Position numbers and translations under genes: made by a program
Origin: Oscillospiraceae bacterium
GTDB lineage: Bacteria; Bacillota; Clostridia; Oscillospirales; Ruminococcaceae
Direction: 5' to 3'
NCBI GenBank assembly: GCA_030539275.1
Contig: JAUNSK010000029.1
Location: 1 to 46,754, forward strand
Length of the DNA stretch: 46,754 nucleotides
Part shown: piece by piece, positions 62 through 46,754 of the stretch
Numbering within the stretch: position 1 is the first letter of the stretch
How the letters are laid out: each line of letters opens with the position of its first letter
Notes under the pieces: model-generated
Databases searched by the model: none
Told to the model about the DNA's origin: nothing
What the model saw: the letters and a program-made list of their open reading frames with translations, nothing else

Positions 62-98
62 AAAAAAAGAGATCAGCTTATCACTGATCTCTTTTTTT
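62..98 (+). terminator. Rho-independent terminator of the rRNA operon
   Basis: A 9-bp stem AGAGATCAG/CTGATCTCT with a 7-nt loop is flanked by seven A residues and followed by seven T residues. It sits directly after the 5S 3' end. The A-tract means it could also work on the minus strand. Confidence 0.85.
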
Positions 99-12913: not shown

Positions 12914-12920
12914 AAGTAAA

Positions 12921-13085
12921 GGATAGAGGTGCGGTCGAGATCAGTAACATGTGTGAGGAAAACCATTCCGTCATCAGCATATGCGAAAGGTGAGACTGCC
13001 GAAGAATGTGTTATGGTAAGACACTTTCTGGTTGCATATCTAACAGGGATGCAACTGTCATCATTGATATGATGGAGAGCTATCG
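12921..13085 (+). ncRNA. Lysine riboswitch (L box)
   Basis: The 165-nt leader carries the conserved blocks of the lysine riboswitch in order: GATAGAGGTGCGG at the 5' side, AGTAA, GTGAGG, GAAAGGTGAGACTGCCGAAG (12974-12993), CTGGTTGCAT, GGGATGCAACTGTCATC, and GATGGAGAGCTATC at the 3' side. P1 forms between GATAG (12922-12926) and CTATC (13080-13084). A terminator 53 nt further on and the downstream genes asd, dapA and dapB fit lysine-dependent premature termination. Known family; the mode (OFF at high lysine) is inferred from the terminator. Confidence 0.93.
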
Positions 13086-13137
13086 GCATGATAAATGAAA
13101 ATTGATTATGTCAGAGGATCTGTTATATTGTATGATG

Positions 13138-45260: not shown

Positions 45261-45271
45261 GTGATAACAAT

Positions 45272-45471
45272 AAAAAACCGCCTTGCCGGAATTGTATGGT
45301 ATATAAAACCCGCCGTTAAGCAGGTGGGTATCCGCCTGAAGGTCTCTCGCTCCCTTCTTCTGCATAAGCAGGAGGTCTGCAATCCACTCAACAGAGCTAA
45401 ATTCCCTTATATAAAGTGTTGGATTATAAAGACCATACACTCGCACAAGGCAGAAAGAAATCTTATCTTCG
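45272..45471 (-). ncRNA. ssrS: Probable 6S RNA
   Basis: A transcript of about 200 nt is predicted from a near-consensus promoter to a T-run. It folds as a long rod. The ends pair as CTGCCTTG/CAAGGCGG and then TGTATGGT/ACCATACA. The middle is loosely paired, and the apex has a short CTGC-TTAT-GCAG hairpin between CCTC and GAAGGG. Size, dedicated promoter, closed rod with a central open region and lack of a credible ORF fit 6S RNA, which binds sigma-A RNA polymerase. The name is a recognition by shape rather than a scored match. Confidence 0.58.
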
Positions 45472-45533: not shown

Positions 45534-45860
45534 TTATTCCGTTTCGCTGTCCTCGAAATCTTCATCGTCTTCAAACATTTCTTCTATACGTTTCATAAAC
45601 ATCTGACCGATCTGTTCAAATTCTGCATCATCATCTATTGAAACAAGCAATTCCTCGTCTCCGTCCATCTGTGCTTTCAGAATAACGAGATCGTCGCTGG
45701 ATTCTAGTGAATCTTCAGGGTTTTCAATGTATGGGACAAGGGCAAAGTATCTCTGACCTTCTTCAGTTTCCATAGCATCGATAAGTTCAAAAGTTTGTTC
45801 AACTCCGTCCTCATCTACCAAAGTATAAAGGTCCGGTGTAAACTCAGATAATTCTGACAT
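45534..45860 (-). CDS. DUF1292 family protein
   Basis: A 108-aa strongly acidic cytoplasmic protein with the DUF1292 pattern YTLVDEDGVEQTFELIDAMETEEG followed by YFALVPY, and an acidic tail (EDDEDFEDSETE). The family (YrzB-like) is widespread in Firmicutes and its function is unknown. ACGGAGAC precedes the ATG. It has its own promoter; the 6S-like RNA gene lies just downstream in the same direction. Confidence 0.88.
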   Translation of the reverse strand: MSELSEFTPDLYTLVDEDGVEQTFELIDAMETEEGQRYFALVPYIENPEDSLESSDDLVILKAQMDGDEELLVSIDDDAEFEQIGQMFMKRIEEMFEDDEDFEDSETE

Positions 45861-46012: not shown

Positions 46013-46041
46013 TTGACAATGACGAAAACGTGTGGTATTAT
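46013..46041 (+). promoter_or_regulatory. Strong predicted promoter of the ORF-poor terminal region
   Basis: Perfect TTGACA and TATTAT with 17-nt spacing and a TGTGG before the -10. Transcription would begin near 46048 and run rightwards with no terminator before the window end. Confidence 0.8.
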
Positions 46042-46236
46042 AGACTCATGGAAAGGAAGAGAAAAGATCAGGCGATAAGATCAGATCTCAGATGTTCCGG
46101 ATCAGATAAAAGCTTACTCAGGATGAACAATCAACAATTAAAAGTAATATGAAACCATTTGTGGTTTGGTTGGATTGCTGCTATTGTTCGTGAGGACAGC
46201 TGATGTTGATAACGATCACGTAAGGAGGCGGGTCCC

Positions 46237-46587: not shown

Positions 46588-46754
46588 AAAAGGTGGTACC
46601 GATGGACTAGCAGTTTTAAATATAAAATACATTTGAAAAGGTGGTTCCGATGGAGTAATCAATATTAATACTATTACCAAAATAAAACTGAAGGGTGAGT
46701 CCGATGGAATAAACGGTTTTACATATCGACCAAAAATAAAACTGAAGGGTGAGT
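46588..46754 (+). repeat. Tandem SD-ATG-GA(C/G/A)-stop units, truncated by the window end
   Basis: Four successive units. AAAAGGTGGTACCG then ATG GAC TAG (ATG at 46602); AAAAGGTGGTTCCG then ATG GAG TAA (46650); GAAGGGTGAGTCCG then ATG GAA TAA (46704); and ACTGAAGGGTGAGT, cut at 46754. Steps between start codons are 48 and then 54 nt, and the identical ACTGAAGGGTGAGT of the last two units is also 54 nt apart. The segments between units differ. Each unit looks like a ribosome site feeding a two-codon reading frame. Confidence 0.8.

Follow-up and report, generated by a model that had tools for sequence, protein, structure and literature searches.

What could a bacterium gain from a row of ribosome-binding sites, each of which opens a reading frame that is closed again after a single sense codon? 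This question is raised by the right end of the window, i.e., the whole stretch of 46,754 nt that was analyzed, which is an entire contig (C20) and into whose end such an array runs. As the original prediction had it, three complete units and a fourth one cut by the edge are found there (Table 1), with ATG-to-ATG spacings of 48 and 54 nt; at its default score, TRF does not include the window array in its repeat list. The three complete units have the layout of two-codon minigenes, i.e., a Shine-Dalgarno (SD) sequence, a start codon, one sense codon and a stop codon.

Architecture of the Array Gene

The end of the window recurs in the same genome at C48:5-83 (79 nt, 99%, by DNA search of its own genome), and C48 adds four units, the last of them about 350 nt beyond the ATG-TAA unit; C20 and C48 are two separate, unjoined contigs, and the unit total is interrupted by the break. 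Six same-genus genomes that hold the promoter and the array on one contig contain 6 to 9 minimal open reading frames (ORFs), mostly 53-62 nt apart, and in one genome (G006) the promoter, array, terminator and an rpoD-like sequence follow one another on a contiguous stretch, in the same order as in C20 and C48. Contig C48 carries the array on past the edge. The coding sequence expected after it is not there: a terminator comes next, followed in C48 by opposite-strand ORFs that read, from their translations, as Rrf2-like and rpoD.

Upstream of the units lie a sigma70-type promoter (TGN precedes the -10 box in 55 of the 68 loci defined below), a 5′ hairpin and a short ORF, ORF1, whose ribosome site is of the same kind as those of the array units. 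The loop of the hairpin is identical in all seven same-genus sequences while its stem varies on both sides, being GAUC/GAUC in the window and GUUC/GAAC or AUUC/GAAU in other same-genus loci. Defined by rule as the first SD-CC-N-[A/G]TG site whose ORF runs for 8-40 further codons, ORF1 is found in 64 of the 68 loci. The gene order in relatives is strong promoter, short ORF1, units, short last ORF, a motif without ATG and terminator, with a divergent DUF1292 gene, which in the window lies to the left of the array RNA. Left of DUF1292 stands a 6S RNA; a scan of 20 loci detected it in 8, and 9 of the 20 stop short of that side. No plus-strand ORF longer than 34 codons occurs in the window part of the RNA, in C48:1-565 or in the G006 copy. 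The array RNA is probably an independent gene with strong transcription, about 1.2-1.4 kb long in same-genus genomes, and is apparently mRNA-like while lacking a normal protein gene.

Table 1. Features of the array gene and its neighbors in the window (C20, bare positions) and on contig C48.
Feature	Position	Strand	Basis
6S RNA	45271..45459	-	61.4 bits
DUF1292 gene, divergent	45582..45812		
Sigma70-type promoter TTGACA-17 nt-TATTAT, TG ahead of the -10 box	46013..46041	+	sequence
5′ hairpin GATC-AGGCGATAA-GATC	46066..46082	+	alignment of seven same-genus loci; stem read by eye
Extended SD of ORF1, GTAAGGAGGCGGGTCCC	46220..46236	+	sequence
ORF1, GTG start, VDSMESIMTGIVLNGSLNTE, 20 aa	46237..46299	+	sequence
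Unit 1: AAGGTGGTACCG + ATG-GAC-TAG (ATGGACTAG = 46602-46610)	46590..46610	+	sequence
Unit 2: AAGGTGGTTCCG + ATG-GAG-TAA (ATGGAGTAA = 46650-46658)	46638..46658	+	sequence
Unit 3: AAGGGTGAGTCCG + ATG-GAA-TAA (ATGGAATAA = 46704-46712)	46691..46712	+	sequence
Unit 4, truncated by the contig end	46745..46754	+	sequence
Two ATGGAATAA units	C48:33-41, 87-95	+	sequence
ATG-TAA unit	C48:137-142	+	sequence
Last ORF, 16 aa	C48:324-374	+	sequence
ATG-less motif AGGAGTGATTCCGCC	C48:373-387	+	sequence
ATG-TAC-TAA unit	C48:490-498	+	sequence
Terminator hairpin, T-rich tail	C48:527-560	+	read by eye

Two further observations concern other genes. In two genomes of genus g136 (L129 and L130), the gene after the RNA resembles, by eye, RqcH/NFACT, a ribosome quality-control factor; in the loci inspected from other genera, the gene after the RNA differs. 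Elsewhere in the window, an ordinary lysine riboswitch (12916-13090, plus strand, 107.7 bits) stands ahead of an ORF at 13102 that reads as aspartate-semialdehyde dehydrogenase, with dapA/dapB-like ORFs next.

Distribution and Sampling of Loci

A motif search of related genomes had been proposed, and the units do recur, both in the same genus and in other genomes of the family. The array DNA was matched in 7 of 10 same-genus genomes, its own excluded, in addition to one 25-nt match in another genus. Across the family, a pattern of two neighboring GGTGNNNCCRATG, in which no stop codon was demanded, matched 20 of 396 genomes and 9 of 126 genera, three of the 20 matches (G063, G396 and G027) resembling matches to coding sequences. 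Ten of 72 repeat stretches were inspected; five show the array (L031, L034, L047, L071 and L089) and five are other repeats.

The DUF1292 gene served as an anchor, being present in 115 of 128 family genomes. Sixty DUF1292-anchored loci carry the array RNA according to a promoter rule and inspection (15 of 30 loci and 45 of 80 upstream stretches); the apparent non-carriers include loci that end at a contig edge. Together with eight loci from a unit search in which stop codons were likewise no requirement (L022, L127, L129, L130, L132, L134, L136 and L137), these 60 syntenic loci form the set of 68, chosen by promoter position, to which several genera contribute more than one locus. The set derives from 76 promoter matches, eight of which were removed by hand ahead of counting, either as duplicates of a locus or genome (L162b, L174a, L190 and L159a) or, by eye, as non-RNA (L157a, L178b, L229 and L254). 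One genome, G014, holds two copies of DUF1292 approximately 3 kb apart, each with the same array-RNA promoter and the same ORF1 start (L189 and L190).

Beyond the family, one clear carrier, L285 (family f24), emerged from 29 loci of the order. This is a short version, with GGTGAGTCCGA sites with and without ATG within less than 400 nt, and could be a minimal model. An isolated CC-ATG with a short frame in L295, from another family of the order, was taken as chance.

Selection on the Start-Stop Frames

The original prediction held that the minimal ORF itself is under selection, and the reading frame provides the means to examine it. ATGs were classed by the presence of an SD-like string upstream and of CC at -3,-2, and a frame was called short when a stop fell within two further codons; the SD expression was fixed after the units had been seen, and frames +1 and +2 serve as the internal control. 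Among the SD+CC ATGs of the 68 loci, ORF1 included, 115 of 211 are short in frame 0, the two remaining frames giving 15% and 14%, and the corresponding frame 0 counts for the control classes are 27/281 (SD without CC), 161/1052 (neither) and 18/51 (CC without SD). When ORF1 is removed (the first site with a frame of 8-40 codons, in 64 loci), short frames number 115, 16 and 11 of 154 in frames 0, +1 and +2, respectively, and frame 0 is ahead in 44 loci and behind in 4. The 60 syntenic loci alone give 81, 13 and 9 of 113, and the result thus holds without the eight others.

The excess is not confined to one position. A stop is found as codon 3 in 79 of 146 cases in frame 0 vs. 2 of 154 and 2 of 153 in the other frames, and as codon 4, with none earlier, in 28 of 67 vs. 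22 of 303 (p about 4e-15), the p-values being guides only because related sequences are not independent. In total, 118 minimal ORFs were collected, of which 81 are two-codon and 29 three-codon; they end with TAA (71), TAG (26) or TGA (21), include three GTG starts, and some may sit past the terminator. Under the criteria used, 18 of the 68 loci have no minimal ORF. The second codon of the two-codon frames takes 24 forms and encodes 16 amino acids. The acidic second residue, predicted to be constant, is indeed found in the three units of the window; in the wider set it occurs in only 11 of 81 two-codon units, and an acidic dipeptide as the selected feature can be discarded in favor of a local property, since codon 2 takes so many forms.

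Because the excess of stops is confined to frame 0, where it shows at codon 3 and once more at codon 4, and because codon 2 varies, the comparison of sequences gives good support to the view that the mini-ORFs, i.e., an ATG and an in-frame stop after zero to two sense codons, are kept by selection. A fixed RNA motif would not yield a stop that is in frame at variable distance, which therefore points to translation, and by the frame test on the 68 loci the units are more than chance matches.

Predicted Extended Pairing with the 16S rRNA

The units are of the type (A)AGG(AG)GTGAGTCC-R-ATG-X-stop. After alignment, their consensus is AA(A/G)GGTGAGTCC(A/G)ATG, also given as AAAGG(AG)GTGAGTCC-R, and it is complementary, with a one-base bulge, to GGCUGGAUCACCUCCUUUCU, the 3′ end of the 16S rRNA, past the usual anti-SD. 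This tail was taken from four relatives; no 16S was found in the genome's own MAG assembly and none was obtained from G150. The mean predicted duplex energy with the 16S tail is -12.5 for the 118 units vs. -10.6 for the ribosome-binding sites of 24 genes of the window, and the part of the tail outside the anti-SD core adds a gain of 4.5 kcal/mol for the units vs. 1.2 for the genes, of which 1 in 24 has CC at -3/-2. When the last six bases of the units alone are shuffled, the gain is still 3.2 against 4.5. Since shuffled units keep much of the extra pairing, the predicted extended pairing is modestly supported, and it is weakened by the one-base bulge and by the A found at -4 in 25 of the 118 units. 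The sites are predicted to be only slightly more unpaired than average. A local hairpin of the GGN..NCC kind is unsupported, the combinations T/T, A/T and T/A numbering 47, 23 and 16 among 108 scored.

The same motif also occurs with NCC in place of the ATG. This ATG-less form is present in 27 of the 68 loci, and the motif is therefore more than an initiation signal, a finding in favor of docking independent of initiation, or else of a site bound by a protein. Some RNAs carry the ATG-less motif more than once (L127, L132, L184, L188, L192, L204, L240 and L247), the repeated copies often following a short basic peptide that ends in -NI or -KI (peptides read by eye).

Possible Functions of the Array RNA

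From the gene, its synteny and the selection on its start-stop frames, we infer that the array RNA may be a ribosome-docking array or decoy, a reading to which we give a probability of roughly 0.45. Among the roles put forward in the original prediction, ribosome trapping or an SD decoy would accordingly be the best fit. The RNA would present a series of extended SD sites able to pair with the 16S 3′ tail and with the base of helix 45, and each site would bind a 30S subunit or a ribosome. The bound ribosome would initiate and then terminate in place after no more than one or two peptide bonds. The RNA would thereby be loaded with ribosomes without protein output and the pool of free ribosomes would be tuned, while ORF1 and the last ORF may serve to report ribosome occupancy or to gate it.

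Four other explanations have to be weighed. Parked ribosomes could act in cis by shielding the RNA from nucleases or Rho, the short peptides of ORF1 and the last ORF being the product. Single mini-ORFs with a strong SD protect transcripts and raise the expression of a neighbor, as described in one report (PMC8708949), ORF1 is present by rule in 64 of the 68 loci, and in many matches inspected by eye a short ORF closes just ahead of the ATG-less motif. However, ORF1 peptides are alike in their first residues and in little else, last-ORF peptides differ inside a genus (both by eye), and so many sites would be a high cost for two short peptides, which makes a role in cis rather unlikely.

The units could also brake translation as minigenes do, by releasing peptidyl-tRNA and occupying tRNAs and peptidyl-tRNA hydrolase. 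With 24 different codons for 16 amino acids in second position, no single tRNA is targeted, and 29 of the frames are three-codon; we regard such braking as unlikely, although the most toxic minigenes described in the same report are two-codon frames with a strong SD and UAA (PMC8708949) and the array resembles them in that 81 of its 118 minimal ORFs are two-codon and 71 stop with TAA.

Alternatively, GTGAGTCCR could bind a translation-related protein, the ATG and stop being a by-product. The presence of the ATG-less motif in 27 of the 68 loci would fit such a sponge, as would the binding of ribosomal protein bS21 by OLE RNA at an SD/anti-SD mimic (PMC12054373), but in-frame stops at variable distance would be left unexplained and the GGN..NCC hairpin is unsupported; overall, it appears improbable. 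The more specific suggestion of repeated GGA sites for an RNA-binding protein, in the manner of a CsrA-type sponge, fares poorly because CsrA (PF02599) gave 0 matches in the 96% complete genome of the window, the control having matched in 3 of 14 genomes. Finally, it is very improbable that the array RNA is a leader, as also put forward in the original prediction, or an attenuator that controls a downstream gene: the next gene is on the same strand in some other genera (by eye), but the following genes differ between inspected loci, and in the window's genome such a role is unlikely because a terminator ends the RNA after the array and the ORFs beyond it run on the opposite strand.

The docking or decoy reading may be carried further, although more doubtfully. 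The array RNA, encoded beside 6S RNA, could be its translational counterpart and store or titrate ribosomes via many extended contacts with the 16S 3′ end that reach as far as the base of helix 45; the start-stop frames would let a ribosome load, fire once, and then be released or re-bind. Such an RNA might, equally tentatively, be a global translation regulator of an undescribed kind.

Relation to Known Systems

6S RNA is a decoy for RNA polymerase. The decoy principle would be alike in the array RNA, whereas target, sequence and structure differ, and 6S RNA is a neighbor rather than a homolog. Like sponge RNAs of the CsrB/RsmZ type, the array RNA has repeated GGA-containing sites; unlike them, it carries start and stop codons in these sites, and the search of the genome gave no CsrA. 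A comparison with type III toxin-antitoxin systems (ToxI-like), made by ORFs alone, found no plus-strand ORF longer than 34 codons before the terminator, the next ORFs being on the opposite strand. AAGGTGGTACCG resembles the T-box core; a T-box was rejected because Rfam gave no match and most units do not preserve UGGN.

Two-codon minigenes offer a closer comparison. Lambda bar, a toxic minigene, is one such case. In the axe-txe mg2 and LEE1 minigenes, an SD is likewise followed by ATG-X-stop, and their effect needs ribosome binding and translation (PMC8708949). The minigenes described so far each occur singly, in the leader of a coding mRNA, whereas the array RNA holds up to nine, has no main cistron, and carries a fixed GTGAGTCC-type sequence that is conserved between genera. 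OLE RNA is similarly a large RNA of Bacillota tied to SD/anti-SD pairing (PMC12054373); it is highly structured and carries an anti-SD mimic, in contrast to the array RNA, whose many sites are on the SD side and come with start and stop codons. The covariance models of Rfam 15, including OLE, GOLLD, ROOL and raiA, gave no match at the curated cut-off on the RNA in the window or in 20 loci. An array of start-stop ORFs is not described in the open-access literature as searched by title and the start of the abstract, which is limited evidence of novelty, subscription papers being mostly outside this search.

Significance

Without the decoy idea too, a conserved RNA gene that has no Rfam family and carries in-frame ORFs of one or two residues in dozens of genera needs explaining. 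If the decoy reading is true, bacteria would possess a class of genes selected for translation without a product, in the form of minimal-ORF arrays on a dedicated RNA, and RNA-based titration of ribosomes would join the known controls of translation capacity. The arrays would also provide natural start-stop substrates for work on initiation, drop-off and recycling.
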